Shown here: one piece after another, positions 8,997 to 35,167 of the stretch | Numbering within the stretch: position 1 is the first letter of the stretch | Layout of the letters: the number at the start of each line of letters is the position of its first letter | Source of the DNA: Bacteroidia bacterium | GTDB taxonomy: Bacteria; Bacteroidota; Bacteroidia; Bacteroidales; Azobacteroidaceae | Direction of reading: 5' to 3' | DNA length: 36,521 nt | Assembly: GCA_025996865.1 (NCBI GenBank) | Contig: BNTV01000043.1 | Coordinates: 1 to 36,521, forward strand | Notes under the pieces: model-generated | The model's database searches: none | What the model was told of the DNA's origin: nothing | Seen by the model: the letters and a program-made list of their open reading frames with translations, nothing else | Made by a program: the position numbers and the translations under genes

Positions 8997-9018
8997 CCAA
9001 AAAATTATGCTATACGTA

Positions 9019-9675
9019 ATGAAAAAAATTATATTAATTGTTTGGTCTTTGTTGATTATTTCTGCTTTTGGTTATTCGCAATCAGGAGTTGATTCCGTTT
9101 GTACTTCAAATATCGAAAATATTTTCAAAGTACATGACCTTAAGATTAAATATAAAACGGTTCAATATATATACGAGGAGAGTAAGAAAAATCATAAATT
9201 CCCGAAAGACAATGATTTATTAAATAGCTATTTTGAGATGATCAGAGGGTTTCCGCTGTATCCTAAAAAACAAAATGACTCAATTTCCAGAGTAAATCCC
9301 GGAGAATTGGTGGAAGTAAAATGGATGTCAGAGGAAGAAATGAATAGATATATTAAACAGATAAATTGTACACCGGAAGAAGCACTGAAAGAATATAGAG
9401 ATTTTATTCAGCATATAAAATCTGAAAAAGAACTCTATTTGAAGTGTATAAATACAGAACTTGCCAAAGGGGATTTGTCGGAATATGTGAAAGTCAGTAT
9501 AGCGCCATACAACTTTCTTCCTCCCGGATGGTCACTTATGGCTCGACCTGCAAGTATCACAAAATTAGATTTTTTGAAGGTTTTCAAAGAATTTATTTTC
9601 AACAACAATGAAGAAGTTTTACCCGAAGGCTTGATTGTGTACGAATATCTTAAATGTAATTGTAAAATTCTTTAA
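9019..9675 (+). CDS. Secreted protein of unknown function
   Basis: The protein begins with a signal peptide (MKKIILIVWSLLIISAFGYS), so the ATG at 9019 is preferred to the ATG at 9007, which adds only MLYV. The mature part (about 195 residues) is mostly helical and charged (TVQYIYEESKKNHKFP, SEEEMNRYIKQINCTPEEAL) and ends with cysteines (YLKCNCKIL). No known domain is recognised. It is AT-rich compared with the operon that follows and lies in the accessory patch with the IS1380-like remnant. It converges on the end of the large minus-strand operon, with 31 nt between the two stop codons. Confidence 0.65.
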   Translation: MKKIILIVWSLLIISAFGYSQSGVDSVCTSNIENIFKVHDLKIKYKTVQYIYEESKKNHKFPKDNDLLNSYFEMIRGFPLYPKKQNDSISRVNPGELVEVKWMSEEEMNRYIKQINCTPEEALKEYRDFIQHIKSEKELYLKCINTELAKGDLSEYVKVSIAPYNFLPPGWSLMARPASITKLDFLKVFKEFIFNNNEEVLPEGLIVYEYLKCNCKIL

Positions 9676-9706: not shown

Positions 9707-11968
9707 TTATGGTTGATACGTGAATCTAAAATTTCTAATGTTTGGCGCCCCTACATGAAATATTAACTTTATCCGGTGCGTTCCCGCCGTCAATCTTATG
9801 GGTTCCGATGTTAGATTTTGCCACGCCCAACTATCCCATCCGCCGGTTGTAGGGAAGGGATCGCTGATACCCATATCCTTTCCGTCCACTTTAAATCTGA
9901 AGGTGGATGGAAATGTTTGTGAATATTCCAATTCCACAAGGTAGTCTCCCGCCTCTTCCGCTTCTACCGTGTAGATCAGCCAGTCGCCCGGTGTGTTGTA
10001 TCTGACGGTTGAGCGGTCGGCCTCAATATTAACATCCGGACTTCTCTTATCGCCGCGATCTGTCCGGTACTTTGTTCCGCTGCCATTTCCGGCTACATTT
10101 CCTGCCGTTTTGTTAAAATATGCAACGTACATACCGCCAAAATCGAAATCAACAGCTTTCAAAACGTATGGAGCAGCGGCAGTCAGCGTATGCGGTCCAT
10201 TAAACGGGCGTGACGTTGCTTTTGTCGCTTGATAATATGTGAACCTGAAATTCCTGAAGTTTGAACCCGCTGCATCAATCATAAGTTTTATTCTGTGTGT
10301 TCCTTTCGTCAATCTAATGGGTTGTGGCATGTTACCCCATCGCCAAATAGTGTAATCGCCGGTGCTTGCCAAAACCACCGGTTCGTTCAATACATCTTTG
10401 CCATCAACCTCAATGATGATAGCGGAGCCAAAACCAGGATCTGAAAATTCTAACTGCATCAAATAGTCCCCCTCATCTTCCACTTCTACCGTATAAAGCA
10501 CCCAGTCTCCTGCTGTCGCATATTCTATAATGCCGCCTGAACCGATATCCACATAAGGTGATAACCAATAAGGATCATTCGCCCGTAAATTATGCCCCTC
10601 TCTGATAATGCCGTCGTTGTTTACGTCTCGGTAACTGCATTCCGGACCGCCGATGTCGAATTTCCATGCCGCCAGTGTATATGGCTTGGCGGAAGAGAGG
10701 ATATGAGTACCCATGAACGGCCGGGCAATTTGCATCGAATCCGGATTAAAAAAACGACAAATACTGTCTTCGTTCACAAGGAATGGATGCGATGCCGGAT
10801 ACAGAACACCGCGATTATAAAAAACTGGTTGATACAATATATTTTTATTTACCGATAGAAATTGAATATGATCGCCGTTAACAGTGCCCCATCCTATTAG
10901 ATTCAACTCTTTTCTATGGTGAGTAGCCAGAAAAACGTATCCTGTTTCGTTCAAATGACTGTTTAGTAGCGGAGCCTTTACATCCGTGGCATATCCATAT
11001 TCGGAGGTTACATCAACAATGTTATTTACATCTTGCAATAACGGCGGAATGTTGTTCATGTATAGCGCCACATTCTGCTGTATGCGATAAGTCCGGCGAT
11101 ATACTTTGGCTTTATTACGTATCGTTCCCTGATGAGGTTCCCCGGGATTGGTTTCGCATCCCATAAAGGAAATATGATTTCCGCTGCTGTCTCTTACACT
11201 GTTCCACGAGTGTCCCGCCACCGCTCCGATATATTTATGCGTAAAATCAAAAGTAACCGGGATACCCAACCCGCGCATCGCAAATAGGGCCAAGTCTGCC
11301 ATGGCGTCGCATGTTCCGCGTGTGGACGCCATCAACTGTGAATAACTCATATCAGGGAAATCCTTATCCATTCTGAAACGCGGTAATATGTCGTTCACCT
11401 TGCTGCATGCCTGAACGGAAGTGATCGTCGGATTTTTCATGAACGACCGGTACAAATCGGCGAAACTGGCAAGTACCTTTTCGCGCCAGTTTTCGAGCGG
11501 CTCGGTACCCACACGGTAGGGGAGTATCTCCTCGCAGAAAACATCGAATGGAATATCTTTGCCCCACGGCATCTCTTGCCATACCATAAAAGATATTTCG
11601 ATGTTGTTGATAAGATATTTCGCCGTGATATTCGTTACATCGTCTTGTATTATCGGTTCGCCCATTTGGTAAGAATCCAAGACCATTCCCTTATCTGATG
11701 AACTTGTCCATCGTAAATGCACGGTTGCCACGTCATTCCATGGCGCATCGTAATATTCCGAATATTTGCCGGGCATGTTTACAATCAGAAATTCGGCTGC
11801 GCGAAGTTTCAGGCTGTCGGCCGGGTTTTTGCCGTAATATTTAAGAACTTCCTCTAATTCCTTGCGGTTTTTACCTGCCTGCTGAAGCACTTCCTCAATA
11901 GCTTCGGGATACGATGTACAGGAACTGACCAAAAATATAATAACAAATAAAGAACAGAATGCTCGCAT
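9707..11968 (-). CDS. Transglutaminase-like lipoprotein with two CBM6-like modules
   Basis: With the ATG at 11968 the protein starts MRAFCSLFVIIFLVSSC, a lipoprotein signal with Cys17; longer readings add 16 residues before it. Residues about 200-290 form a transglutaminase-like core: STRGTCDAMADLALFAM (Cys220) and AGHSWNSV (His253). The usual third acidic residue is not obvious; the region SFMGCETNPGE is closest. Two tandem modules (about 415-580 and 590-753) share ATAGDWVLYTVEVEDEGDY-type and RLTKGTHRIKLM-type strands, typical of CBM6/CBM35 beta-sandwiches. Length is 753. It is the last gene of the Sus-type operon, 113 nt after the DUF1080 gene. I infer a surface or periplasmic enzyme acting on a glycan-linked amide, peptide or glycopeptide bond; an isopeptide-forming role or a non-catalytic one remains possible. 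Confidence 0.8.
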   Translation of the reverse strand: MRAFCSLFVIIFLVSSCTSYPEAIEEVLQQAGKNRKELEEVLKYYGKNPADSLKLRAAEFLIVNMPGKYSEYYDAPWNDVATVHLRWTSSSDKGMVLDSYQMGEPIIQDDVTNITAKYLINNIEISFMVWQEMPWGKDIPFDVFCEEILPYRVGTEPLENWREKVLASFADLYRSFMKNPTITSVQACSKVNDILPRFRMDKDFPDMSYSQLMASTRGTCDAMADLALFAMRGLGIPVTFDFTHKYIGAVAGHSWNSVRDSSGNHISFMGCETNPGEPHQGTIRNKAKVYRRTYRIQQNVALYMNNIPPLLQDVNNIVDVTSEYGYATDVKAPLLNSHLNETGYVFLATHHRKELNLIGWGTVNGDHIQFLSVNKNILYQPVFYNRGVLYPASHPFLVNEDSICRFFNPDSMQIARPFMGTHILSSAKPYTLAAWKFDIGGPECSYRDVNNDGIIREGHNLRANDPYWLSPYVDIGSGGIIEYATAGDWVLYTVEVEDEGDYLMQLEFSDPGFGSAIIIEVDGKDVLNEPVVLASTGDYTIWRWGNMPQPIRLTKGTHRIKLMIDAAGSNFRNFRFTYYQATKATSRPFNGPHTLTAAAPYVLKAVDFDFGGMYVAYFNKTAGNVAGNGSGTKYRTDRGDKRSPDVNIEADRSTVRYNTPGDWLIYTVEAEEAGDYLVELEYSQTFPSTFRFKVDGKDMGISDPFPTTGGWDSWAWQNLTSEPIRLTAGTHRIKLIFHVGAPNIRNFRFTYQP

Positions 11969-12081
11969 TTTGAAATGATATTTTACGTTTATTGAAATAA
12001 TCGGTAAAAACTGCACTTATATCGCTATCGGTATTACGCAAAGTCTATCTGTTGAAAAAGCCTGTCACTTTATACGGATGA

Positions 12082-12807
12082 TTATTTTTTCAATTCTTTT
12101 ACCCGGATATTTCTGAATTTAACAACAGAGTTGTGGCCTAAGAAAGCAATATATCCTTTCTTGTAAAACAATGAAGCCGGAATATTATCTGTAGGACTGT
12201 TTTTTGTAGCTTCTTTTAAGTTACCGTCAACAATAACTGTTCCGTTAAGAATGACTGTAATATTATCGCCATCCGCTACAACTTCCTGATAATTCCACTC
12301 TCCTGCGGGTTTCAAGAAGCCTCGTTTCGCGGGTATCCATCCATATACCGATCCATGGTACTGATACGGTTTTAAGTCTTTATACACAAGCGCCTCATTA
12401 TCCAGTATCTGTAATTCCATTCCATCGTATCCGCTTTGTGTAGTCACCATTTTATGTCGCAATCCCAACCCGCTATTTGCTTCAGGGGTCAGTAAAAATT
12501 CAAAACGTAAAATAAAGTCATCAAACGCTTGTTTTGTGTACAAATTTCCATAGCCGGCTTTCGGGTACATGACAATGCAACCGTTTTCCAAAACATATTC
12601 ATCCGTATTGCTTGTCCATTGCGACATGGATGTACCGTCGAAAAGAACCTTATATCCCTCCTTTTTTTCTTCTTTTGAGAGGTGAAATGTAGTCTCTTTA
12701 CCGGTAGTTGCTTGTTGAGAACCACTGTCCCTCGATATATGACAAGAGACAGTGATAAAAAAAGCCGGTAAAAAGATGAGAATAATCTTTAAGTGTTTCA
12801 TCTTCAT
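12082..12807 (-). CDS. DUF1080 lipoprotein (3-keto-disaccharide hydrolase family)
   Basis: The signal peptide MKMKHLKIILIFLPAFFITV ends at Cys22, indicating a lipoprotein. The mature part is a single DUF1080 concanavalin-like jelly roll (about 50-240), with GYKVLFDGTSMSQWT at the start, NSGLGLRHKM, GMELQILDNEA and GHNSVVKFRNIRVKEL at the end. Members of this family have been shown to hydrolyse 3-keto-glycosides after a partner oxidises the C3 hydroxyl. The partner candidate is directly upstream: the start codon overlaps the oxidoreductase stop (TAATG), so the two are translationally coupled. Length (241) is normal. Substrate is not predictable from sequence. Confidence 0.9.
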   Translation of the reverse strand: MKMKHLKIILIFLPAFFITVSCHISRDSGSQQATTGKETTFHLSKEEKKEGYKVLFDGTSMSQWTSNTDEYVLENGCIVMYPKAGYGNLYTKQAFDDFILRFEFLLTPEANSGLGLRHKMVTTQSGYDGMELQILDNEALVYKDLKPYQYHGSVYGWIPAKRGFLKPAGEWNYQEVVADGDNITVILNGTVIVDGNLKEATKNSPTDNIPASLFYKKGYIAFLGHNSVVKFRNIRVKELKK

Positions 12808-14147
12808 TATTTTTTTATTTTGAGTTTCTCAGCATCCCATTCAATTGCTTCATTTTTCAAGTAGCTTTCATAACTTAACAATGCCGGGGCAGCCGTTCTA
12901 ACAGCAAAAAGGACATCTGCCGTCAAAGGTGTGTTATTCCTGATTCCATGGATAAAATTAAAATGATGGTCATAATGTCCTCCTCTATACCCTTTCTCCG
13001 CATAAAAGACAAACTCCCGCGGAGATACTTTTTCGGGAACATCCATCCCTTGCCCCAATTGTCCTAATACCTCAAAATCCTTCGTATTCACATCTTCGAT
13101 TGTTTTCAGGACAACTTTATCCCAACCGACATCCAACGAACCTTTCGAACCAACAATCCTGAAGTCCATACTTCCCCATTTCTTTGATATGCCATCTACA
13201 TAATTAGCGCCTAACTGTACCGTGAAAGCGCCTGAATCATTTCTGTCCGGATAATCAAAATATCCCAGCATAATATCAGGAGTATCACGTAAACCGTCAG
13301 TATAATGACGTATTCCTCCGGTAGTATATACCTTCTCCGGACCCATTGCATCCATGATATAATGAATACTGGACAGGACATGGACAAACAGGTCTCCCGC
13401 TATACCCGTACCATAATCTTTCCAGTTTCTCCATGCAAAGAAATGCTGGGGAGTAAAGGGTATTTTAGGTGCATTTCCCAGAAAACGGTTCCACCAGATT
13501 GTTTCTTCGGATGCATCATCGGGTGCTGTAAATGCATTCAGCTTGCCGGGAGCCCCGGTAAACTGCCCGTCAATGAAATTCACTTTCCCAATCACGCCCT
13601 TTTGTACCAATAACCGTGCTGCCCTGTTTCCTAAAGACGACATGCCCTGGCTTCCAACTTGGAACAGCACCCCATTTTTTTTCTGTGCTTCAATTAATGC
13701 TTTCCCTTCCTGCAATTTATGGATGACCGGTTTTTCGCAATACACATGCTTCCCGGCTTTCATCGCCTCAATGGCTATAGGCTGGTGCCAATGGTCGGGA
13801 GTAGCGATGATTACCGCATCAATATCTTTCCGCAAAAGAATTTCCCTATAATCTTTTGTAACGAAAATTTCATTTCCCCATTGTGCCTTGGCATCCTTCA
13901 AACGTTTGTCATACAAATCACAAACCCCAACAAGCTTAACACCTTCAATCGATAAAGCGGTGAAGGTATTTGAGGTTCCCATACCACCCTTACCTATCAG
14001 GGCGATATTGATAAAAGAGTTGGGAGATACCGACCTTTTCACCTCTTTGGCTAATTTACCTCCTGCTGCCGAGAGCAATGAGGGAGCCGAATTAAAAGCG
14101 ACAGCACCTATGGCCACTTTTTTTAAAAATTCGCGTCTGTTTTGCAT
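12807..14147 (-). CDS. Tat-exported Gfo/Idh/MocA family oxidoreductase
   Basis: This is an NAD(P)-dependent sugar oxidoreductase of the glucose-fructose oxidoreductase type. The ATG at 14147 gives MQNRREFLKKVAIGAVAFNS, a twin-arginine signal. Longer readings start inside the previous gene. The Rossmann domain follows (IALIGKGGMGTS, about 48-60; DAVIIATPDHWHQPIAIEAM; the conserved EKPVIHK). The C-terminal alpha/beta domain (about 170-446) contains GDLFVHVLSSIHYIM. Tat export means it is folded with its cofactor before crossing the membrane. It begins 1 nt after the preceding stop and overlaps the DUF1080 gene by 1 nt. With DUF1080 it may oxidise a glycan C3 hydroxyl to a ketone before cleavage; that pairing is known for other loci and inferred here. 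Confidence 0.92.
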   Translation of the reverse strand: MQNRREFLKKVAIGAVAFNSAPSLLSAAGGKLAKEVKRSVSPNSFINIALIGKGGMGTSNTFTALSIEGVKLVGVCDLYDKRLKDAKAQWGNEIFVTKDYREILLRKDIDAVIIATPDHWHQPIAIEAMKAGKHVYCEKPVIHKLQEGKALIEAQKKNGVLFQVGSQGMSSLGNRAARLLVQKGVIGKVNFIDGQFTGAPGKLNAFTAPDDASEETIWWNRFLGNAPKIPFTPQHFFAWRNWKDYGTGIAGDLFVHVLSSIHYIMDAMGPEKVYTTGGIRHYTDGLRDTPDIMLGYFDYPDRNDSGAFTVQLGANYVDGISKKWGSMDFRIVGSKGSLDVGWDKVVLKTIEDVNTKDFEVLGQLGQGMDVPEKVSPREFVFYAEKGYRGGHYDHHFNFIHGIRNNTPLTADVLFAVRTAAPALLSYESYLKNEAIEWDAEKLKIKK

Positions 14148-14148
14148 A

Positions 14149-15489
14149 CTATTCTTCCCCCAACACATTAAATTCGGCTATATCGCATCGCGCCCCGCTT
14201 GCAGGGCCTCTAGCCTGATTATCATACTCAAAAGCGTCACTGATTACAAATTTGAGATATCGAGCCGAAGAGCCATCCTGGGTGAAAGTGTGTTCACGTG
14301 GTGCGTTGCTGCTAACACTCCAATCGGACAACTTTGTCCATGTGACATTATCAGCGCTGATCTCAAAATAGCCGTTTTTAAGGTTCCCCCTCCAAGAGTC
14401 GTTAGGTTTAGTAAAACCAATCCTGTAAATTTTATACTCTCTCTTCATGTCGAAGATAAAATAATAGGGAAGTGGTTTGGGAGCGTCCCATTTCGATCCC
14501 CAGAAAGTGGCCACATTCCCATCGAGCATTTTCTCCGGAGTGCGGTTAAGTGATACATATTGAGGCTCTTCGGAGATACATGAATTCCAATCAATAATTT
14601 CCCAATCTGTGCGGTTGAGAATACCGGGATTTAATGCGACGATTATAGCTATCTTCGCATTTACAGAAGGATTACTGTTGAGTGAAACAGTAACAACAGC
14701 TGAACCTGTGCCAACCGGTTCGATTTCGCCATCCGTCACTTTCACAACGGATTCATCGGAAGACTTCCAAACGAGAGAAGGATCTCTAACTCCGTAGTCT
14801 GTCGGCAACAGTACGGGGATCACAGTGTGTTTATTATTCAGCTTCAAAATCAAATCGCTCTCCACTTGAATTGCAGTTATAGAATTCTCCAAAACTTCAA
14901 CGGAAATAACCTTCTTTACAGATGGTTTATCTGCCACACTGACCGTGATTTCAGCATTACCGAAATAAACGGGTGTTACTATTCCATTCTCATCAATTGT
15001 TACAATGTCTTTATCAGACGATTTCCAAATGAGGTTGAAAGGAATTTTTTCATTGTAATTTGACGGTATTGCGCTTGCGGCTAATTCCGTGGTTTTACCC
15101 ATTGATATGGGAATATGGTCAACAGATGCAAGATTTGCTTTATTGAATACCTCAATCCCTTCAAGCAGCAGAAGTTTTTCTACATCTACAGGTATCGACC
15201 TTCTCAGACCTTCGCTGCTTGTTATATTGATAAAACATGTGCCATCGCTGATTGCACGAACCAACCCCGTTGAACTGACCGTGGCCACTGCGGCGTCGGT
15301 AGTTTCCCATGTAAACGTCTGAGTCGTAGGGCTTGCCGTAATTTGAAATTCCTCGCCTTCTATCAATTCTATGGTAGAATGGGTGGAATAAATTGTATAT
15401 TCTACATTTCTTTCCGGACCCTCGCTACAAGCTGTGAGTGTCAACAAACCGGCGAAAATGGATGATGCCCGATATAAAAATCTATTCAT
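14149..15489 (-). CDS. Surface lipoprotein with Ig-like (Big_2) repeats and F5/8C domain
   Basis: The lipoprotein signal MNRFLYRASSIFAGLLTLTA is followed by Cys21. Three bacterial Ig-like Big_2 repeats follow (about 35-105, 110-200, 205-285), each with the W-x-S/T-S/T-D...V.T...G.V signature, as in WETTDAAVATVSSTGLV, WKSSDKDIVTIDENGIV and WKSSDESVVKVTDGEI. The C-terminal F5/8 type C (discoidin, CBM32-like) domain spans about 290-446, ending ARYLKFVISDAF and ARCDIAEFNVLGEE. No catalytic domain is seen. The design, a stalk carrying a carbohydrate-binding tip, suggests a surface glycan-binding protein working beside SusC/SusD. It lies 30 nt after the DUF1735 gene and 1 nt before the oxidoreductase gene. 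Confidence 0.87.
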   Translation of the reverse strand: MNRFLYRASSIFAGLLTLTACSEGPERNVEYTIYSTHSTIELIEGEEFQITASPTTQTFTWETTDAAVATVSSTGLVRAISDGTCFINITSSEGLRRSIPVDVEKLLLLEGIEVFNKANLASVDHIPISMGKTTELAASAIPSNYNEKIPFNLIWKSSDKDIVTIDENGIVTPVYFGNAEITVSVADKPSVKKVISVEVLENSITAIQVESDLILKLNNKHTVIPVLLPTDYGVRDPSLVWKSSDESVVKVTDGEIEPVGTGSAVVTVSLNSNPSVNAKIAIIVALNPGILNRTDWEIIDWNSCISEEPQYVSLNRTPEKMLDGNVATFWGSKWDAPKPLPYYFIFDMKREYKIYRIGFTKPNDSWRGNLKNGYFEISADNVTWTKLSDWSVSSNAPREHTFTQDGSSARYLKFVISDAFEYDNQARGPASGARCDIAEFNVLGEE

Positions 15490-15519
15490 ATTTTTTAGCT
15501 TTTATCAGTTCTTAATTTG

Positions 15520-16452
15520 TCAATTATCTTCTATCCGTATCAACCTTTCCTCTACTTCTCTCCATGCGGTAAAGGTTCCATTGCTTTGCTTGAGTCGAAA
15601 ACGGTAGTTTAAGTAGAATACACGTTGCTTGCTTGTACCTTGCAAAAGTTCAGGGACATATTTGTTATAACCGTTTACATTATCAAGCATTTCTACTTCC
15701 ATAGAGCCATAAGGAGTAACCAAAAGTGAATTATCCTCCTTTATCTGTACCACAACGGATAGTCTTTCAATATCGGCAACGGTGGTAGCACTTCCATAGG
15801 TTTCGTTGCCAATAAACATCCTCACCTTGTCTTTTTCCAGCGGTTGCACTAATTTTGTACCACTCAACACGGTAACAGGGTTTGTCATCGTACCGCTTTT
15901 TGCGTAATAGGTGGGTATTATTTGTTGGGCATAATCATTTTCAATGGCTACGCGGAAGAGCACATCACTTTTGTCCTCATTCACATCATAGTGCGAAACA
16001 CTTTTGATTTTCAACGGAATGAAATAGATCGAATCCGGAGACAAACCCAACGCGCGAACTTTCACAGGCATTCTTACGTAGTGATAATCCGAATTGGCGG
16101 GTAACGTTACCGTATATGACTCAATTTCGTACCTGTCGGCAGGTAACAATTTGGCATACTCGCTTTGGTAATTATAGTTCAAACTGTTGAACTTGTCTAA
16201 CATATCCGGATTCGGCTCGAGCGTTACCGTGATATCCTTTTCATTACTATTTGAACCGCCGCATCCAATGGTAACATACCTGACAGGTTCCTCTTCATTG
16301 AGCGTATAGGATGTGGCATAAACATTTTCCGTGCCACTTAGCAAATAAACCAAAATTTTATATTGTTCATCCTGATAAATGGCGTCGGTGTTGCAACCGG
16401 CAAGACTAAGCGCCACGATACATGTAATGAATATTTTTAATGATATTTTCAT
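15520..16452 (-). CDS. DUF1735-type surface lipoprotein
   Basis: The ATG at 16452 gives MKISLKIFITCIVALSLAGC, a clean lipoprotein signal with Cys20; a longer reading begins at a TTG and adds 8 residues. The N-terminal half (about 25-160) shows the DUF1735 pattern: repeated strands, NPDMLDKFNSLN, then YAKLLPADRYEIES and VTLPANSDYHYVRMPV. The C-terminal half (about 165-310) resembles the DUF4361-like domain found with DUF1735. Such proteins are surface glycan-binding partners in Bacteroidetes glycan loci. No enzyme motif is seen. It begins 24 nt after susD and precedes the Ig-like/F5-8C gene. Confidence 0.82.
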   Translation of the reverse strand: MKISLKIFITCIVALSLAGCNTDAIYQDEQYKILVYLLSGTENVYATSYTLNEEEPVRYVTIGCGGSNSNEKDITVTLEPNPDMLDKFNSLNYNYQSEYAKLLPADRYEIESYTVTLPANSDYHYVRMPVKVRALGLSPDSIYFIPLKIKSVSHYDVNEDKSDVLFRVAIENDYAQQIIPTYYAKSGTMTNPVTVLSGTKLVQPLEKDKVRMFIGNETYGSATTVADIERLSVVVQIKEDNSLLVTPYGSMEVEMLDNVNGYNKYVPELLQGTSKQRVFYLNYRFRLKQSNGTFTAWREVEERLIRIEDN

Positions 16453-16476
16453 ATATTTTTCAATTTTTACTTTCAA

Positions 16477-18459
16477 TTAATATTGGTATCCCGGGTTCTG
16501 ATCCATTGAAGGAGATTTCCTTATCTCGTTCAATTCAATTGGAACAAGAATCAATTTTTTATCCACCACTCTGTTTCTGGCTACTGTTTGATTGACAGGA
16601 ACAATATTGTAAAACGCCAATCCGTCTGCATCCATATCCATACCCAGAATAGGTTCTCTTTCTGTGGTTTCGTACTTGCCCCAGCGCCGCACATCCCAGA
16701 AACGCGCGTTTTCGTGAAGCAATTCCACCATTCGTTCGCGTTCTATCAGACTCTGCATGGTTTCTTTCGAAACAAGTTCAGCATCAGTCAGTCCCGGTAA
16801 TCCGGCTCTGAAACGAATCATATTGAAATAATAACGCATTTCTTCTATATTCCTTGATAGTTGATAATTTTCGACGGTATGAGTGGAGGTCAGATTATTC
16901 AAAGCTTCCACATACGCAAGCAGGATTTCTGCATACCGGATAATAGGATATGCTTTTTCTAACCGCCGGGAATTTTCGTACCCCTCACCTTGACCGGGAG
17001 CTCCCCATGAATCTTCAGGGTGCACGAATTTTCTCAACGAATAGCCCGTTGTATTTACGTTGTATGGTAAATTCCGGTTTGAATTTTTACCGGCGTTACC
17101 ATTCAGGTTATACCAAAATTGGATATTTCTCTTGCTTAAGTTTGAAGTGGAAAGCATGGGCCAAAGTGCTCCGCTGAATCCGATACTGGCATAGAACCTC
17201 AATTCGCGGTTTACATACATTTTGTGGACATTTCCTTTTAACGTATAGCCGGAAAAAGTCAGATCAGTTCCATTATTCCATATACCATCCGTTAAGTAGG
17301 GATATTTATCGCTTGAATTTTCAATGGTACGTCCGTCTGCCATCAGGAAGGCGTCAATTACTTTTTGCGGTATCGATACAGTGGCATATCCGTTGTATAT
17401 TTCATAAGGAAAAGCATGTCTCGAATAATTTTCCAAACCGGATGATCGCTGCGCCCACAGATATTCAGGATTACGCGCAAACGGCGACTCTCCGGTGAAC
17501 ATATCGGAATATGACCGGAAAGGGTCAATATCTCCCGCTCCCGATGGAAAACTAAGTTGCGATACATTATCGGGCAGAGGAGCGGTATCCGGCATTTTTT
17601 TTACGGTGTGTAAAGCAAAGATGTTCATGTCTATAATACGCTTGCAAACCGCAGCTGCCGCAGCCCATTTACGTTCGTCGTATGTTTGTGAAACATAGTT
17701 TACTCCATCAGTTGACCTTTTCCACGTTCCATACGTTCTACGGGCTGCCAATCCTCCATTCCAGAGCGGACTTGCCTGAATCAGCCGCAGACGGGCGCTC
17801 AACCCCAGTGCAGATCCGGAGGAAGGACGTCCGAAATAACTGGGTGTGACAATGTCCGGCATAAGCTCCGCCGATCGTTCCAATTCACTGCAAACATAAT
17901 CCACCGATTCGTCGAATGTCGCTCTTGGACGGTCGTAGTAATCTTCCGTTTCATTTGTTTCCATCACGTCGTCGCCTAATATCACAATGGGACCATAATA
18001 CATGATCAATCTGTAATAGGCATAGGCGCGCATGAAATAGAGATAGCCCGTTAGCTCATTCTTTTCCCTTCCGGTCAGGTCGGTTGCCTTGTCTATGTTG
18101 TTAAGAACCGTATTGACTTTACGAACAATGATGTACACGCTGTTCCAAATATTAAACGACCTAAGATTAGTAGGAGTTATGTTCCCCTGTACAAAATCTA
18201 ATGAGGCATAGTCGGAAATCATTATCGAAAAAGCCTCATCGGTGGCAAACGAACCCAGTTTGTCGAATTTGTAACCTTCATCAGGAAACAGAGACGCTAT
18301 ATTCCATACGTAACGTTCCAGATTTGTTTTATTTACAAAAATTGAATCATATTTAAACGACTCTTCAAAATTATCGGCAACGTCCAGGTAATTGCAAGAT
18401 GACATCGTCATGATTGCCACACAGGCACAAACTATTGTATGCTTAAATATATTTTTCAT
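16477..18459 (-). CDS. SusD/RagB family outer-membrane lipoprotein
   Basis: This protein is the lid that captures glycan (or peptide) ligand above the SusC transporter. The lipoprotein signal MKNIFKHTIVCACVAIMTMS is followed by Cys22 (SCNYLDV). The N-terminal TPR-like region contains YLYFMRAYAYYRLIMYYGPI, diagnostic of SusD-like proteins. The C-terminal RagB/SusD region has LIERERMVELLHENARFWDV followed by RRWG, and the family ending (ELNEIRKSPSMDQNPGY). Length 660 is at the long end of the family (about 500-650). It lies 12 nt after susC. Ligand identity is not readable, although long variants often bind branched or large ligands. Confidence 0.96.
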   Translation of the reverse strand: MKNIFKHTIVCACVAIMTMSSCNYLDVADNFEESFKYDSIFVNKTNLERYVWNIASLFPDEGYKFDKLGSFATDEAFSIMISDYASLDFVQGNITPTNLRSFNIWNSVYIIVRKVNTVLNNIDKATDLTGREKNELTGYLYFMRAYAYYRLIMYYGPIVILGDDVMETNETEDYYDRPRATFDESVDYVCSELERSAELMPDIVTPSYFGRPSSGSALGLSARLRLIQASPLWNGGLAARRTYGTWKRSTDGVNYVSQTYDERKWAAAAAVCKRIIDMNIFALHTVKKMPDTAPLPDNVSQLSFPSGAGDIDPFRSYSDMFTGESPFARNPEYLWAQRSSGLENYSRHAFPYEIYNGYATVSIPQKVIDAFLMADGRTIENSSDKYPYLTDGIWNNGTDLTFSGYTLKGNVHKMYVNRELRFYASIGFSGALWPMLSTSNLSKRNIQFWYNLNGNAGKNSNRNLPYNVNTTGYSLRKFVHPEDSWGAPGQGEGYENSRRLEKAYPIIRYAEILLAYVEALNNLTSTHTVENYQLSRNIEEMRYYFNMIRFRAGLPGLTDAELVSKETMQSLIERERMVELLHENARFWDVRRWGKYETTEREPILGMDMDADGLAFYNIVPVNQTVARNRVVDKKLILVPIELNEIRKSPSMDQNPGYQY

Positions 18460-18471
18460 TCTTTTTTATTT

Positions 18472-21400
18472 TTAAAAGTTAAGGTAAAGCTGCAGCGTAT
18501 ATCTCGATGGTATCGGATAAGCGCGTCCGTTTCTAAATCCCTGTTCCGGATCCCAGTCTTTAACCTTGTCCCAAACATAAAGATTATTCCCGACTAACTG
18601 TATATCAGCAGATGATAAGCCCAGCCGTTTGAGAAATCCCGCTCTGAGATTGTAATTGAGCGTTACTTCCTGCAGGCGCAGGTAGCGGGAATCACCCTTC
18701 CAAAAGGTGGACAACTGCGAATTATTAGCATTGTATCCGTATGAGAGTCGCGGAAAGCGCGCATCGGGATTTTCCGCCAGAGCCGGGTCAATCCCGTTTG
18801 CCAAAGCATAATCCATCGGAATCCAACGGTTGGCCGGGTTATTGACGACCATAGTCAGCACATTACCGATTTTCCCATCGTTGAAAGGTACGTAACCCGG
18901 TCCATTGGTGCCATAATCTGCATGATAATAACCCACATGATAAAAATCGGTTTTACCTGTTCCTTTGAACAATATGCCCAACGTGAAGTCTTTGTATTTC
19001 ATTTCCCCGCCGAATCCAAACATTAATCGCGGATAAGTAGGATCAGACAAGAACACCCTGTCGTCCGTATTGATCACTCCGTCTCCATTGACGTCTTTGT
19101 ATTTGATATCGCCGGGCATGACTTTGAAGCCTCCGAAAGACTGAACAGCGCTATATGCAATATCGTCTTCGTTTGCGAACAGTCCTGTGGCAATGTAACC
19201 GCGTATCGCCTGGTGAGGATATCCGTTAAGCGGTTGGTATGGATATCTGGTAGGCGGTTCTTCCCAATTGATGATTTCGTTTGCCGAATAGGTATAATTT
19301 CCCCGTATTGTAAAACTCCAGTCCTTACGGATTTCATGCGTATAGGAAACATTACCGTCGCTACCGTAACTGTGCATACTCCCTACATTACCATACGGAC
19401 GCGCAGAATAGACCAATCCGGCATAACCGGGGATAGTTTCCCTGCGTTGGAAAATATTTTCACGTTTATCGTTAAAAAAGTCCACAACAAATGATAACCG
19501 ACTATCCAACATGTTCCCTTCAATACCCAAATTAGCTTTCAGCGCTTTTTCCCACATCAGGTTGTTGGCGCCGAATTGTAATTCGCTCACGCCGTTGAGC
19601 GTACTACCCCAGCCTACAGGCTGGCTTTCTCCAATAATGGTCATGAATGGGAACCGGAAATCGGCAATGCGATCACTACCTACCGACCCGTATGAAGCGC
19701 GTATTTTCAAAAAGTTAAGCCAGCCTACATGATCCGTTACCCATTGATAACCGGTAGGAATCCATCCGACCGCCAGCGAAGGGAAGAAACCGAACTGTTT
19801 CCCGGGTTCAAAGTTTTCTGAACCCGTGTAGCCGAAATTAAAATCGACCATATAGGTATTTTTGAATCCGTATGTAATCCGGCTGGAAATTCCCTGATAC
19901 CTTTTAGGAAGGGCTTCTAAGGCGCGACGACCTGCACCGGCTCTATCAGCATCTCTTGTGTCTTGTTGGTCGCTCATATAATAATAAACCAGTGCGCTCG
20001 CACGATGGTCGTCCGAGATGAGTTTGTCCCATGATAGCGTACTTTCAAAATGATATTTCCGGGACTGCCGCTGAGAATTCATGTATTGGGGACTAACCGC
20101 GTCATAGCTCTTTGCCCTTTGTAATTCGCCCCAGGTAGTACGCCCGCTCGCCAGATACAATTCGGGCATTACAAATCGGGTTTCGTCTTTCCATGAAAGG
20201 TTGTCGTAGGCTCCTTGCATTCTCAATTTCAGATCTTTGATCAGATAAGAGAAATCATGGGATAAAGCCAGCGTTGCCTTGCCTGTATATTGCTGGTTGG
20301 TTTGTTTTCCTGTGTGATTCAGCAGTACATAGGGTGATACACCGGCTCCCCCATACGATGAACTGTAAGCCGGCAACTCTCCTGTCGAATATCTGATAGG
20401 AACGGTAATCGGCGTAAGCATCGACTGAGCCTCCCACATGGCGTCCGTATTGGCAAAACCGGGTTGCGTCCTCAGCGACATGAAACCGTCTGTAGCAAAA
20501 TACAAAGTGGTGCCTTTGGTCAGATCAATATCCAGATTGATACGGTAATTATAAGTGTTGTAGCCAACGCCGGAGCGAATGGTGTTTTCCGGAGCCACTT
20601 TGTAGGCGGCGTCTTCTATCGAGGTACCTAAACTGATAAAGTAACGCGCTGCTTCGCCGCCGCCCTGCGCACTCATATAATAAGTTTGCTGTAAACCGTT
20701 TCGTTTCATGATCTCATCCTGCCAACTGATGTCGGGATAAAGATCATCATCCAAATGGTTCTTGATAAGTTTCAACTCCATATTGTCATAAAGAATCTCT
20801 TCGTTACGTACCGTCCTTGCTTCATTGGCTAAAACGGCATAATCGTATGCTCTCAGATATTCAGGCATCCGGTTCAGGTACGACAGCGTATAATTGGCTC
20901 TTGCCTTAATTTGCAACTTGCCGCTTTGTCCGCGCTTAGTCGTGATCAGTACCACTCCATTGGCTCCACGAACTCCATAAACAGCCGTTGCAGAAGCGTC
21001 TTTCAGTATGGAGAATGATTCGATATCAGCAGGGTCGATGGAGTTTATATTACCCTCCAATCCGTCTATTAATACCAACGCCGAACTACTCGCGCCGAAT
21101 GTACCAATACCGCGCACCCAGAACTCCGAAATGTTTTTGCCCGGTTCGCCGCTGCCTAATACGGTAATCATACCGGCAACACGTCCGCCAAGCATATTTG
21201 CAATGCTTGTAGCAGGCGTTTGAAGATCTTTTACATCCAATGACGTAATAGCGCCTACAACACTGATTTTACGTTGGGTTCCCAAGGCGGTAACAACCAC
21301 CTCTTCAATTTCAGTGGCGCTTGGCGTCATGGTGACGGAAATTTTTTCATTTTCAGCGTCAACAAGATATTCCTTATTTTCGTATCCTATATATGAAAAC

Positions 21401-21624
21401 ACAAGAACATCTCCCTTAGCAGCCTTGATCTTAAACACGCCGTTGGCATCGGTTGCCGTACCAACCATGGCTTGCGCCTTCAGATAAATGTTAACTCCCG
21501 GAAGTGCCTCTCCATTTTCGTCATATACGGTACCCCCCATATTATACGTCTGCTGTGCCGCGACTGATAATGGAAACAAACACAGTAAACAAATAACCAG
21601 AATATTTCTATAATTAAATTGCAT
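18472..21624 (-). CDS. SusC/RagA family TonB-dependent transporter
   Basis: This outer-membrane barrel imports oligosaccharides using TonB energy. It has a signal peptide (MQFNYRNILVICLLCLFPLS), an N-terminal carboxypeptidase-regulatory-like domain (about 27-110, GTVYDENGEALPGVNIYL and SYIGYENKEYLV), a TonB-box-like segment EEVVVTALG, and a plug with SILKDASATAVYGVRGANGV, the SusC signature. The 22-strand barrel fills the rest, ending in aromatic YTLQLYLNF. Length is 1050. There is no STN domain, so it is not predicted to signal directly to an anti-sigma factor, in keeping with the lack of a local sigma/FecR pair. It lies between the IPT/NHL gene (26 nt) and susD (12 nt). Confidence 0.97.
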   Translation of the reverse strand: MQFNYRNILVICLLCLFPLSVAAQQTYNMGGTVYDENGEALPGVNIYLKAQAMVGTATDANGVFKIKAAKGDVLVFSYIGYENKEYLVDAENEKISVTMTPSATEIEEVVVTALGTQRKISVVGAITSLDVKDLQTPATSIANMLGGRVAGMITVLGSGEPGKNISEFWVRGIGTFGASSSALVLIDGLEGNINSIDPADIESFSILKDASATAVYGVRGANGVVLITTKRGQSGKLQIKARANYTLSYLNRMPEYLRAYDYAVLANEARTVRNEEILYDNMELKLIKNHLDDDLYPDISWQDEIMKRNGLQQTYYMSAQGGGEAARYFISLGTSIEDAAYKVAPENTIRSGVGYNTYNYRINLDIDLTKGTTLYFATDGFMSLRTQPGFANTDAMWEAQSMLTPITVPIRYSTGELPAYSSSYGGAGVSPYVLLNHTGKQTNQQYTGKATLALSHDFSYLIKDLKLRMQGAYDNLSWKDETRFVMPELYLASGRTTWGELQRAKSYDAVSPQYMNSQRQSRKYHFESTLSWDKLISDDHRASALVYYYMSDQQDTRDADRAGAGRRALEALPKRYQGISSRITYGFKNTYMVDFNFGYTGSENFEPGKQFGFFPSLAVGWIPTGYQWVTDHVGWLNFLKIRASYGSVGSDRIADFRFPFMTIIGESQPVGWGSTLNGVSELQFGANNLMWEKALKANLGIEGNMLDSRLSFVVDFFNDKRENIFQRRETIPGYAGLVYSARPYGNVGSMHSYGSDGNVSYTHEIRKDWSFTIRGNYTYSANEIINWEEPPTRYPYQPLNGYPHQAIRGYIATGLFANEDDIAYSAVQSFGGFKVMPGDIKYKDVNGDGVINTDDRVFLSDPTYPRLMFGFGGEMKYKDFTLGILFKGTGKTDFYHVGYYHADYGTNGPGYVPFNDGKIGNVLTMVVNNPANRWIPMDYALANGIDPALAENPDARFPRLSYGYNANNSQLSTFWKGDSRYLRLQEVTLNYNLRAGFLKRLGLSSADIQLVGNNLYVWDKVKDWDPEQGFRNGRAYPIPSRYTLQLYLNF

Positions 21625-21650
21625 AATAAACGTTCAATTATTTATGATAA

Positions 21651-22967
21651 TTACTCTATAGTTAACTTTCGGACAACATTGTTTCCGAGGTCTGTAATAT
21701 AGATGTTGCCATCCGGTGTTACAGCGACACCTCTTGGTTCATTGAAAAGGGCATCCTCGGGATTACCGTCCTGATAACCGGCAACGCCTCCTTTGCCGAT
21801 AACGGTCGATACCACGCCTCCGCCACTATCGTCAAGGGTAATCATGCGGATGCAATGGTTGCCCCTGTCTGCCAGATACAGGTTGCCATTGGGGGCAACG
21901 ATCAACTGGTTGGGAACATTAAACCGGGCTTCCGATAATGGCCCGTCTTGCCATCCGGACTCACCGTTTCTGCCGGCAAAAATAGTATGCTCTTTCTTTT
22001 CGAGGTCATATTTGCCGATACAATGCAGGGATGAATAGGAAATGTAAATAATATTGGGATTAACAGGATCAAAAACGAGGTAAGAATCAGATGAAGTCAA
22101 CGTTTCTGCGACTAATGAACCCTCCCTTGTGACAGGATCGACCTTGATGAGATGCCCTGAGGCGTAATAACGAGTATATAGCTCTCCTGTTACCGGATGG
22201 GCCGCAAGACTATGCGCCGTACTGACTGTAAAGGGAACTCCTCCTGCTCCTGCCGGTAGAATTGAGCGTTGCCTTGGCGTCCAGCCTTCAGCAGGATCGA
22301 AAGTAAAAAAGATTCTACCTCCATCGGAAATCGCAGAGACCGTGCCATTTGCATCGATTGTCGGCGCGCCCAACGCATAAGTGGCATCTGAAGAACTTCC
22401 GGGCAATACCGCTTCTACAATGTCTTCTTTCTCGTTAATTCGAACAAAACAAAATGGAACGCGCCAATGAGAAATAAAGATGTTGCCTTGAGTGTCCACT
22501 GTTATAGTGGAAGGTTGATGAAATTCAGCCTCCGACAATCTTCCTCCCTTGAACTGGGTCGTACCTTTTCTTCCGGTAATGGTTTGTATAATATACATAG
22601 TACGGTACAAGTATTTCTTTTGGGTAAAAGCAGTGGAATCGTTATTCACTACAACAGATATGACGTTCTCCTTGCCCGGCTGTCGTGGAGTAATCGTGTA
22701 AATATGCTTCCCGTCGGAGCCGACAACCGGCGCGGGTACATCGTTGAAATACACTTTGATTTTGGATACATCCGAGCCAAAGTTACTCCCTGTTATAAAT
22801 ACTTTGGTGGACATCCCTCCTGAATCCGGTTCAAAGCCGGTGATTTCGACCCGTTTTGATGGATCGTAATTTTCCCGCCCAAAATTATCGGACTTGTCGC
22901 CTTCGCATGACCAAAAAATAATAATAGCCACAACAAAGATGATACTTAATTGCTTTTGTCTCTTCAT
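21651..22967 (-). CDS. IPT/TIG and NHL-repeat lipoprotein
   Basis: This is the first gene of the operon. The lipoprotein signal MKRQKQLSIIFVVAIIIFWS ends at Cys21. One IPT/TIG Ig-like domain (about 40-125) has ITGFEPDSGGMSTKVFITGS and PAPVVGSDGKHIYTITP. NHL beta-propeller repeats follow (about 140-438), most clearly NGNLYLADRGNHCIRMITL and DGNIYITDLGNNVVRKLTI near the end. It has no catalytic signature. Proteins of this kind accompany SusCD pairs in many Bacteroidetes loci and are thought to bind glycans or glycoproteins at the surface. A -7-like TATCTTTG lies upstream. Enzyme activity (NHL proteins include lyases) cannot be excluded. Confidence 0.85.
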   Translation of the reverse strand: MKRQKQLSIIFVVAIIIFWSCEGDKSDNFGRENYDPSKRVEITGFEPDSGGMSTKVFITGSNFGSDVSKIKVYFNDVPAPVVGSDGKHIYTITPRQPGKENVISVVVNNDSTAFTQKKYLYRTMYIIQTITGRKGTTQFKGGRLSEAEFHQPSTITVDTQGNIFISHWRVPFCFVRINEKEDIVEAVLPGSSSDATYALGAPTIDANGTVSAISDGGRIFFTFDPAEGWTPRQRSILPAGAGGVPFTVSTAHSLAAHPVTGELYTRYYASGHLIKVDPVTREGSLVAETLTSSDSYLVFDPVNPNIIYISYSSLHCIGKYDLEKKEHTIFAGRNGESGWQDGPLSEARFNVPNQLIVAPNGNLYLADRGNHCIRMITLDDSGGGVVSTVIGKGGVAGYQDGNPEDALFNEPRGVAVTPDGNIYITDLGNNVVRKLTIE

Positions 22968-23018: not shown

Positions 23019-23026
23019 CAAAGATA
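23019..23026 (-). promoter_or_regulatory. Possible -7 box of the Sus-type operon promoter
   Basis: The minus strand reads TATCTTTG, an exact TAnnTTTG match 52 nt before the ATG of the IPT/NHL gene. The -33 box is weak (AT-rich, no TTTG at 19-21 nt). The surrounding gap 22968-23185 is very AT-rich, and I see no operator or leader structure in it. Confidence 0.38.
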
Positions 23027-23185
23027 GGTATATTTTTAAAATAAAAAAAATATTTAAGAAATTTTTTAGACTTTTTGCTCAGTCTCTACTTTGGCAAAAT
23101 TTTTGCTACTTATAACCGGTATATGTAAGTAAAATAAAAATGATTTTATAGTATCTCATTCAGATACAAATAAAAACATAAAATT

Positions 23186-32691: not shown

Positions 32692-33290
32692 TAGAAAAAA
32701 TAGGCGGCTGTAACCGACCAAATCCGGTTTTTACCTTTTATATTCAAATTTTCGCTGTCAAGCGATTTATAGTCGTCGGTCATGCTTATTTTGTAATTGA
32801 CGCCTATTTGCAAATGTTCGAACAATTCGATGCCGCCGCCCAAATTGATGCCGGCGCCGAAAGATTTGTTTTTGAGTTCATTCTTGATGCCCTCCCAAGC
32901 CACAGAAAAATTGTCTCCGGATAACTTGAAACTGGCATAAGGCCCTGCTGTCAGAAAACCGCCTAAATTATTGACTAATCCGAATTTGAATTTCAAATTA
33001 ACCGGTACGTCCAACGTGCTCTCTTTCTTTTCAAAATCCATATTATCCAGTTTTAATCCTTGCTGACTGTACAGAACAGCAGCGTCTAACTTAATCCCGA
33101 CAATCGGAATATCAAATTCGACAATCGGCCCTGCTTGAAAACCGGTAAAATTGGATGTCTTAATAATGTCTTTGTTGAAAGAAGTATTTGCCAGATTTAC
33201 GCCGGCTTTTAAGCCCAACCGGATATCGGCCTGAATGGAAGAGATGAGAATAAAGCTGAAAACAGCTAAAATAATTGCAACTTTTTTCAT
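32691..33290 (-). CDS. Outer-membrane beta-barrel (porin-like) protein
   Basis: This 199-residue protein has a signal peptide (MKKVAIILAVFSFILISSIQ) and amphipathic strand repeats: GLKAGVNLANTSF, FTGFQAGPIVEFDIP, LDAAVLYSQQGLKLDN, FGAGINLGGGIEL and LQIGVNYKIS. It ends in aromatic AAYFF, as outer-membrane barrels do. It fits the OMP_b-brl_2 family, probably eight strands. Function is unknown; such proteins are small structural or adhesin-like barrels. It overlaps priA by 1 nt (TAATG), an odd pairing of an envelope and a replication-restart gene. A -7-like box lies upstream. Confidence 0.85.
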   Translation of the reverse strand: MKKVAIILAVFSFILISSIQADIRLGLKAGVNLANTSFNKDIIKTSNFTGFQAGPIVEFDIPIVGIKLDAAVLYSQQGLKLDNMDFEKKESTLDVPVNLKFKFGLVNNLGGFLTAGPYASFKLSGDNFSVAWEGIKNELKNKSFGAGINLGGGIELFEHLQIGVNYKISMTDDYKSLDSENLNIKGKNRIWSVTAAYFF

Positions 33291-33318
33291 TATGTGAGAT
33301 GTTTTTAATATATAAGCA

Positions 33319-33326
33319 CAAAGATA
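33319..33326 (-). promoter_or_regulatory. Possible -7 box of the barrel-priA genes
   Basis: The minus strand reads TATCTTTG 28 nt before the ATG at 33290. No good TTTG is found 19-21 nt further upstream, so this is tentative. Confidence 0.4.
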
Positions 33327-33352
33327 AGTACTTTCATTTAAAAGATATGGAT

Positions 33353-33360
33353 TATCTTTG
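33353..33360 (+). promoter_or_regulatory. Possible -7 box of the fucosidase gene
   Basis: TATCTTTG lies 16 nt before the fucosidase ATG at 33377, implying a very short leader. It is divergent from the barrel-gene -7 box and has the same sequence. The -33 region is only TTTC-like. Confidence 0.42.
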
Positions 33361-33376
33361 TAAAAAATTTAATCGC

Positions 33377-35167
33377 ATGAAAAAATATCTTTCAGTTCTA
33401 TTTTTCTGTTTGGTGTCTTTAGTCATTTACAGTCAAAAACAAACCAACGAACGGGCAAAATGGTTTGTCGATTCCCGTTACGGAATGTTCATTCATTGGG
33501 GACTTTACAGCGCCGCCGAAGGTTTTTGGAAAGGTGAGAAAATCAGAAACGACAACAACTATGGAGAATGGATTTTTTACCGGAATCAAATTCCGAAATC
33601 AGAATATCTGACCTTGACCAATCGTTTCGATTGGAATGAGATCGACCCGGAAAAATGGGTTGTTTTAGCCAAAGAGGCCGGCATGAAATACATCACGTTT
33701 ACGGCCAAACATCACGATGGCTTCGCTTTGTGGGAAAGTAAGGTAAATGATTATAGCATTGGCAATTATACAAATCCCAAAAGGGACATTGTAGGTGAAT
33801 TGGCCGCTGCCTGTAAAAAGCATGGTATCCGTTTGTGTTTGTACTATTCGCATTGGGTGGATTGGGAACATGCGTATGGATGGAGTCACGAACGTGAATT
33901 GACGGGGCTTAATCCGAAAGATTATGACCAATATTGGCAGGAAAAAGTGATTCCCCAAATCCGGGAATTGCTTACTAATTACGGAGAAATTAGCATGTTA
34001 TGGTTCGATATGTGGCTTCACCACTCAGAGACTGTGGTTACTAAAGAACAACTTTTTCAATTGAAAAAGTTAATTCGGGAACTTCAACCCAACTGTTTGG
34101 TTAATTCGAGGTTAGGCTTATCCATTCAGGAAGATTCGGATGTTGATTTTAAAACTTTGTCGGATAATGAATTAGGCAATCAAAAAGAAGATTTTCCCTG
34201 GGAGTCTCCCGGAACGGTAGCTCATTCCTGGGGATTTCATTCGGCGGAAACAGAATGGAAATCAACCGGTTTTTTGTTGAAATCACTGATCGGCAATGTC
34301 AGTTTGAATGGCAATTTTACGTTGAATATCGGCCCTCGTGCGAACGGCGAAGTACCGTATGAAATTGAAAACCGGTTGCTTGAAATAGGTAAATGGCTTG
34401 AAATCAATGGAGAATCAATCTATGGCGCAGAGGCTTTTGACTTGGACAAAAACCTGCACAATTGGGGTAAAATCACAATGAAACAGGATGGAAACAAAAT
34501 GCGGCTTTATCTCCATGTTTATAATTGGCCGTTAAACAAGCATTTGCCGTTATCAGGGATAACAACTTCTCCTGCAAAGATTTATTTGTTGGCCGACAAA
34601 CAAAAACAACCATTGCCTTATACCCGTGAAGGCCTTTTTACAGACATACAACTACCTGCTTTACAACCGGATCCATATATATCGGTGGTTGTAGCTGAAT
34701 ATGATCGAACGCCTGAAATTGTGCAAGGATTAGTCGCAAAAACAACGGAAGGCGGTTATTCAATGACCTACGAGAATCAATCGAACGATAAAACATTAAA
34801 AATCAGTGGAAAAAGCCGGTATGGAACAATTCCTTCCCATGTTGAAATACAGAGTCCTCAAAAGCTGAAATGGCGTTTTTACGTAGATCAACCCGGAGTC
34901 AAAACGATGGATATTTCCTACAATTTTCAAGGGAAAAAGTCCGCTGGAAAAATGGTTTGCCTGACGCCCGGCGTCCAATTGTCGCATGTTTTCGAACCTA
35001 CCGGAAAAACGGTTGGCGAACCCAATTCGGACTGGGTCGTGGAACGGTTTCTCTCTCATCGCATTGGAACAGTTTCTTTTGACAAATCCGGAATTTATGA
35101 ATTGGAGTTTGAACTAAGTCCCCCCAAAGACAATGGGGTTAAATTTCAGTGGATTTGGGTGGAGTGA
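33377..35167 (+). CDS. GH29 alpha-L-fucosidase
   Basis: This exported retaining glycosidase removes alpha-linked L-fucose. The ATG at 33377 gives the signal peptide MKKYLSVLFFCLVSLVIYSQ; longer readings start 34 codons earlier in the divergent promoter region and are rejected. The catalytic domain (about 25-370) has RYGMFIHWGLYS, TFTAKHHDGFALW, YYSHWVDW and the nucleophile region ISMLWFDMW (Asp211). The WESPGTVAHSWGFH segment (Glu276) corresponds to the usual WE...SWGY stretch. The C-terminal beta-sandwich runs from about 390 to 596. The Ser-Pro-Gly variant of the WE segment suggests a divergent subfamily. The sigma-factor gene starts 16 nt downstream. Confidence 0.94.
   Translation: MKKYLSVLFFCLVSLVIYSQKQTNERAKWFVDSRYGMFIHWGLYSAAEGFWKGEKIRNDNNYGEWIFYRNQIPKSEYLTLTNRFDWNEIDPEKWVVLAKEAGMKYITFTAKHHDGFALWESKVNDYSIGNYTNPKRDIVGELAAACKKHGIRLCLYYSHWVDWEHAYGWSHERELTGLNPKDYDQYWQEKVIPQIRELLTNYGEISMLWFDMWLHHSETVVTKEQLFQLKKLIRELQPNCLVNSRLGLSIQEDSDVDFKTLSDNELGNQKEDFPWESPGTVAHSWGFHSAETEWKSTGFLLKSLIGNVSLNGNFTLNIGPRANGEVPYEIENRLLEIGKWLEINGESIYGAEAFDLDKNLHNWGKITMKQDGNKMRLYLHVYNWPLNKHLPLSGITTSPAKIYLLADKQKQPLPYTREGLFTDIQLPALQPDPYISVVVAEYDRTPEIVQGLVAKTTEGGYSMTYENQSNDKTLKISGKSRYGTIPSHVEIQSPQKLKWRFYVDQPGVKTMDISYNFQGKKSAGKMVCLTPGVQLSHVFEPTGKTVGEPNSDWVVERFLSHRIGTVSFDKSGIYELEFELSPPKDNGVKFQWIWVE

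Follow-up and report, generated by a model that had tools for sequence, protein, structure and literature searches.

A seven-gene, probably mobile SusCD operon of Bacteroidales with a Gfo/Idh/MocA oxidoreductase and a DUF1080 protein as its probable glycoside-cleaving enzymes

In a stretch of 36,521 nucleotides from a Bacteroidia bacterium of the family Azobacteroidaceae (the window; GenBank assembly GCA_025996865.1, contig BNTV01000043.1), seven minus-strand genes between position 12082 and about 23066 probably form a mobile operon for uptake and cleavage, in which a small glycoside would be broken by 3-oxidation and elimination. The gene content, the conserved order, the signs of transfer, the catalytic motifs, the predicted folds and the targeting signals were observed, and from these we infer the C3 oxidation, the elimination, the recycling of the cofactor and the size of the substrate. 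In the proposed sequence of events, a small glycoside or oligosaccharide would be captured by surface lipoproteins together with SusD and imported by SusC; in the periplasm an oxidoreductase of the Gfo/Idh/MocA family (Gfo), exported by twin-arginine translocation (Tat) with bound NAD(P), would oxidise a ring hydroxyl, probably at C3, the 3-oxidised glycoside would be split by elimination through the pair of Gfo and a DUF1080 protein, and the keto-sugar would either be re-reduced by the same Gfo cofactor, making the process redox-neutral overall, or be handed to other enzymes. The window is one contig (C43) of a 5.42 Mb assembly in 421 contigs, 88% complete, so that a gene missing from it counts as absent only provisionally.

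The extent of the unit follows from its relatives, of which 19 loci were collected by searching GTDB genomes once with Gfo as the query. The order NHL lipoprotein, SusC, SusD, BT_3987-like lipoprotein, Big2-F5/8C lipoprotein, Gfo and DUF1080 recurs in Proteiniphilum sp. X52 (L079), in the Tannerella metagenome-assembled genome (MAG) Cd354_bin75 (L080), in Proteiniphilum acetatigenes (L083; strain DSM 18083, whose Gfo and DUF1080 are 89% and 86% identical to those of the window) and in a Bacteroidales MAG (L087, where SusC is split into two open reading frames, ORFs), and the NHL lipoprotein orthologues of these four loci are 63–91% identical. DNA similarity to the Tannerella and Proteiniphilum copies is 85–92% (90.8% across 10.9 kb for L080) and ends at the DUF1080 stop codon: it begins exactly at 12082 in L080 and L083, at 12094 in L079 and at 12072 in L087. 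An original prediction, made from the sequence alone, had described eight genes as one operon and proposed searching for the same order elsewhere; seven of them were indeed found in order in four other Bacteroidales loci, while the eighth, which encodes a transglutaminase-like lipoprotein, was not with them. The conserved unit is therefore genes 1–7, with the gene for the transglutaminase-like protein as a neighbour at this site.

The eighth gene nevertheless gives rise to another explanation, a glycopeptide system of eight genes with the transglutaminase-like protein as an active partner, which we regard as very improbable. The gene lies on the same strand after a gap of 113 nt, and its product has a lipoprotein signal, a CBM6 match and a Transglut_core (PF01841) match of 20.8 bits, under the cut-off of 23 bits; across 11 homologues Cys236 is nearly invariant, and His269 and acidic residues such as Asp335 are invariant, their roles being guessed. 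The gap holds neither an exact TAnnTTTG nor a terminator-like fold, so the gene may be co-transcribed with the operon. Against this, the gene is present in none of the 16 independent loci with a Gfo at least 58% identical (looked for on the same strand up to 9 kb away, as far as the contigs reach; L125 was left out since it shares a contig with L091), DNA similarity stops at 12072–12094, and none of 31 other stretches holding homologues (L048–L078; 30 stretches from other genomes and one from contig C22 of the same genome) contains a Gfo or DUF1080 relative; seven of them have an RND (AcrB-type) pump within 6 kb and one has SusC. An eight-gene unit was rejected on these grounds, and the original idea that the transglutaminase-like protein is a further enzyme of the unit is not supported. 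Two paralogues, 54–58% identical, are encoded on C22 as a tandem pair directly 3' of a pump gene.

The operon has probably been acquired horizontally by its host, a gut-type bacterium, because its proteins are more alike across families than DnaJ is and because a sister genome lacks it at the same site. The seven proteins are 79–96% identical to those of L079, L080 and L083, compared with 68–72% for DnaJ of the same three genomes. In the sister genome (G321), DUF2851 (85%) and GrpE–DnaJ (82% and 89%) flank a different single ORF, and the DNA similarity between the window and this genome ends at 7980 and restarts at 23088. Short stretches resembling L079 and L083 continue 5' of the first gene as far as 23064–23066, so that the right end of the imported segment can be placed between about 23066 and 23088; the flank beyond (grpE, dnaJ and further) matches pieces of all 44 other genomes of the family, with up to 88% identity. 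These 44 genomes, many of which are incomplete, gave no Gfo match at E 1e-60, and at E 1e-80 Gfo was found in 10 of 393 sampled genomes of the order, the present one included. An AbiE-type antitoxin, Vsr and a phage-type integrase lie 3' of the L080 copy. A chimeric or contaminated contig is an unlikely origin of the operon, as both flanks share one neighbourhood in G321, with a slight residual chance of a misassembly. Base composition has no clear step at either operon end. The stretch 7981–12081 matches neither the operon copies nor the sister genome, and a secreted-looking ORF of 222 residues without a Pfam match lies in it (9007–9675).

The eight ORFs have the place and strand originally assigned to them (Table 1), and the domains found with Pfam and NCBIfam agree with what had been guessed for the eight proteins, none of which matches a glycoside hydrolase (GH), polysaccharide lyase (PL) or carbohydrate esterase (CE) catalytic family at E 1e-3. 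In a polysaccharide utilization locus (PUL) with carbohydrate-active enzymes (CAZymes), one or more operon genes would encode a GH, PL or CE, and by these searches the present operon has no such gene; the tandem SusC/SusD with further lipoproteins makes it a Sus-type uptake locus. With the likeliest starts the intergenic gaps are 26, 12, 0 (24 with a later start), 30, 1, −1 and 113 nt, and the TAATG overlap originally noted is real, being common to the Gfo stop and the DUF1080 start. No regulator is present among the 18 window proteins scanned with Pfam. The −7 box of Bacteroidales promoters is TAnnTTTG, and one match precedes the first gene; the window has 41 matches against 36 expected by chance, which makes the motif weak evidence alone.

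Table 1. Coordinates of the operon features and of the neighbouring gene in the window
Feature	Positions	Strand	Basis
TATCTTTG, TAnnTTTG match, candidate operon promoter 5' of the first gene	23019..23026	-	motif search
TIG and NHL-repeat lipoprotein, putative surface glycan-binding	21651..22967	-	Pfam
SusC/RagA TonB-dependent outer-membrane transporter	18472..21624	-	Pfam Plug, CarboxypepD; TIGR04056 963 bits
SusD/RagB lipoprotein	16477..18459	-	Pfam
BT_3987-like_N and BT_3044-like_C lipoprotein, putative surface binding	15520..16476 (later start 16452 possible)	-	Pfam
Big_2 and F5/8 type C lipoprotein, putative surface binding	14149..15489	-	Pfam
Gfo/Idh/MocA oxidoreductase, Tat signal	12807..14147 (ORF can start 14168; Tat-bearing start 14147)	-	Pfam
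DUF1080 / 3-keto-disaccharide hydrolase family lipoprotein, predicted periplasmic	12082..12807	-	PF06439
Transglutaminase-like and CBM6 lipoprotein, neighbour, probably outside the unit	9707..11968 (ORF can start 12016)	-	Pfam

Both putative cleavage enzymes have the features expected of their families. Gfo carries the Tat motif RREFLKK, RRxF[LIVM] is present in 106 of the 114 full-length sequences among 120 listed homologues, and TatC is encoded in the host genome. The residues on which the predicted chemistry had been made to depend are in place: the cofactor glycines (G59, G61 and G64), K146, D259 and H263 do not vary among 35 aligned sequences, nor does P147, and membership of the Gfo/Idh/MocA family is thereby confirmed; we take these to be the Rossmann glycines, the EKP lysine and the Asp and His of the catalytic helix. 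Among proteins of solved structure, those closest to it in sequence are glucoside 3-dehydrogenases. The protein falls outside the characterised BT_2158 equivalog (NF058561; 154.9 bits against a cut-off of 750), and for this reason attack at C3 is something that we infer only. The DUF1080 protein belongs to PF06439 over its full length (143 bits against a cut-off of 26.8), a family with 13 matches in the host genome, and its predicted fold is that of 3-keto-glycoside eliminase/hydratases; its Glu131 and Asp136 are invariant. The pair fits the route originally suggested, in which C3 oxidation and then elimination or hydrolysis would take place outside the cytoplasm.

In surface lipoproteins of Bacteroidota, acidic residues follow the lipid cysteine, and this signal was scored as the net charge of residues +2 to +6 in orthologues with a recognised lipobox. 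The net charge was negative in all seven Big2-F5/8C, all four BT_3987-like and all four SusD orthologues, while the lipobox pattern missed, and so left out, five of five NHL, six of 15 operon-type DUF1080, one of five BT_3987-like and one of five SusD proteins. The acidic signal was found in none of nine operon-type DUF1080 orthologues and in about 3% of 67 homologues with a recognised lipobox (120 listed). On account of the lipoprotein signals and the Gfo Tat motif, binding is predicted to take place outside the cell, at least for the binding proteins tested, and cleavage by Gfo and DUF1080 in the periplasm. Since no surface-directed depolymerase is encoded and DUF1080 has no surface signal, uptake of a small glycoside or oligosaccharide in intact form appears likelier than depolymerisation at the surface, and such a compound a likelier substrate than a polymer. 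The nearest solved relatives of SusD (5cjz, 5ck1 and 7bll) gave no ligand information.

Gfo and DUF1080 are closely associated near the window and less so with distance. Of the 16 loci, 12 have DUF1080 no more than 50 nt from Gfo, and in seven of these 12 SusC and SusD lie 5' on the same strand (L081, among the 12, is cut off 350 bases upstream); at a Gfo identity of 38–44% the pair is adjacent in one of eight loci. A different reading of the pair is that DUF1080 hydrolyses a poly- or oligosaccharide directly, like the endo-xanthanase of Thermogutta, with the role of Gfo limited to modifying or epimerising the sugar set free. For one DUF1080 protein, that of Thermogutta, hydrolase activity on xanthan and beta-glucans is indeed reported (PMC10881899), and Gfo of the same clade is also found without DUF1080; for a polymer hydrolase, however, the scarcity of the acidic surface signal among DUF1080 homologues is a poor fit, and the stop-start overlap, together with the adjacency in 12 of 16 loci, favours an intermediate shared by the two enzymes. 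We consider direct hydrolysis unlikely.

In the remaining four of the 16 loci, GHs are present instead of DUF1080: GH97, GH2, GH123 and sulfatases in L085, GH2 in L084 (where a xylose-isomerase-like TIM barrel, PF01261, adjoins a window-type Gfo), GH2 and an esterase-like protein in L086, and GH78 and GH127 in L088. These loci bear on a further possibility, namely that the main cleavage falls to glycosidases or esterases from other loci and that Gfo and DUF1080 then trim or repair an unusual sugar, the operon being one arm of a dispersed system. Consistent with this are the alpha-L-fucosidase (PF01120, GH29; 33275–35167, other strand), which lies about 10 kb from the operon and is the sole classical GH among the 18 scanned window proteins, and the neighbourhood of L083, where a sugar transporter, two DUF4434 proteins and a GDSL esterase were identified with Pfam on the other strand within 8 kb downstream (13820–19548). 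A similar opposite-strand cluster occurs in L081 (2413–6184), with DUF4434 recognised by Pfam and the remaining genes by eye only, and both clusters may be part of the same metabolism. Related SusC proteins point the same way, as half of the eight loci fetched with them contain GHs. Nonetheless, the seven genes keep their order in four loci with no GH among them, and the scanned flanks (L083, plus two L079 and three L080 proteins) gave no GH match. Such an accessory role is, on balance, a less probable account than cleavage by the operon's own pair, though a more credible one than direct hydrolysis.

Uptake module and cleavage cassette are separable, given that Gfo/DUF1080 occur with unrelated SusC and SusD (SusCD) and related SusC with other enzymes. 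In L082 and L095 the cassette has 86–90% protein identity, yet SusC is only 34–35% and SusD 25% identical, with the Big2-F5/8C lipoprotein retained at 55–57% despite the differing SusCD; in L090, a Parabacteroides MAG, the values are 67% for Gfo, 58% for DUF1080, 33% for SusC and 27% for SusD. The cassette, as judged from these comparisons, is swapped between unrelated SusCD pairs. At the DNA level, L080 and L083 are 91–95% similar to the window over the five uptake genes and 85–86% over Gfo and DUF1080, with a step at the Big2/Gfo junction; L079 is 82–87% similar throughout and has no step there. Conversely, eight stretches with a related SusC (45–61%) were fetched, seven from other members of the family and one from contig C106 of the same genome. 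GHs stand beside the related NHL-SusC-SusD genes in L142 (GH97), L141 (GH36), L144 (GH20 and GH127) and L143 (GH5 and GH13); L137, L138 and L140, of which some genes were scanned, yielded none. Another Gfo (29%; L143 4740–6119) and another DUF1080 (27%; L139 2–727) lie directly 5' of related NHL-SusC modules, as if the uptake module had repeatedly recruited such enzymes within the family. The attempt to deduce the substrate from the uptake module was abandoned, as related SusC loci carry different GHs (four of eight), DUF1080 (one) or another Gfo (one of the four).

Further arrangements were seen in the collected loci. A second, partial DUF1080 copy (87% identical to that of the window) lies 3' of the cassette in L095 (10015–10509), and in L126 (6682–13959) a Gfo of 58% identity stands beside a CotH kinase gene and a HEAT-repeat protein of 1109 residues with two DUF1080 stretches. 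Distant Gfo relatives (40–43%) adjoin PIG-L-type deacetylases in L127 (2201–3091; confirmed with Pfam), L128 (8346–9215) and L131 (2131–3030), the latter two recognised by eye from their N-termini, which is a hint of aminosugar substrates.

The closest known counterpart is the non-hydrolytic 3-keto-glycoside route of gut Bacteroidota (BT2156–BT2159 and the Alistipes AL set; structures 8tdf, 8tdh, 8tda, 8v31, 8rr2 and 9fbe), which has in common with the operon a Gfo/Idh/MocA protein and DUF1080, export signals, folds and the Lys/Asp/His residues. Set against the make-up of BT2156–BT2159, the window operon has a different Gfo subfamily, a single dehydrogenase and no TIM-barrel hydratase, and its cassette comes with a SusCD pair of its own and three additional lipoproteins. 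With neither a BT_2159-type dehydrogenase nor an IolE-like TIM barrel, the operon is not a complete pathway of that type, and no BT_2159 equivalog was found in the 88% complete host assembly. The same genome carries on contig C101 (L041, 6622–9832) a true BT_2158 member (829 bits), a DUF1080 protein and, adjoining the BT_2158 member, an IolE-like protein (62.6 bits, below the model cut-off). On contig C63 (L044, 6970–11365) another Gfo is followed by a protein of 1041 residues with two DUF1080 matches.

BT2158 is described as a periplasmic glycoside 3-dehydrogenase acting on disaccharides and glucosinolates, whose deletion abolishes growth on trehalose, leucrose and palatinose (PMC11300592), and BT2157 as a 3-ketotrehalose hydrolase (PMC9007349). 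A DUF1080 protein is proposed to work with LacABC in the lactose route of Caulobacter (PMC9007349), which likewise proceeds by periplasmic oxidation and then DUF1080; there the dehydrogenase is the membrane-bound LacABC, whereas the window encodes a Tat-exported Gfo with SusCD, and that account, as far as consulted, describes no SusCD. The known 3-keto-glycoside eliminases CGE and OGE, for C- and O-glycosides, also combine C3 oxidation with beta-elimination but are reported as TIM-barrel Mn enzymes, not DUF1080 proteins (PMC10628242). With Sus-type PULs the operon shares SusC, SusD, surface-type lipoproteins and a single strand; unlike them it lacks GH, PL and CE, and its cleavage cassette is Gfo plus DUF1080. 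No description of a SusCD operon with only these two enzymes was found in the literature searched, which mostly did not cover subscription journals. The chemistry is known; what is new is the distinct Gfo subfamily, the dedicated glycosidase-free SusCD operon and its modular horizontal spread, and there has been little description of oxidative chemistry packaged into an uptake operon that can be transferred.

A bolder and more tentative proposal is that the locus is self-sufficient: one SusCD module and a redox-neutral cassette of two enzymes, comprising a new Gfo subfamily and a bifunctional DUF1080 eliminase/hydratase, would replace all glycosidases for an imported glycoside, with specificity supplied by exchangeable SusCD and chemistry by a cassette of broad specificity that recombines at the Big2/Gfo junction from one SusCD pair to another and passes from one Bacteroidales family to the next. 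As the operon is compact, with seven genes, and a close copy exists in P. acetatigenes DSM 18083, substrate and mechanism are directly testable. If the proposal is true, loci that CAZyme-based annotation perceives as enzyme-less would amount to complete systems for glycoside degradation, and the non-hydrolytic route to a mobile trait that brings its own transporters.

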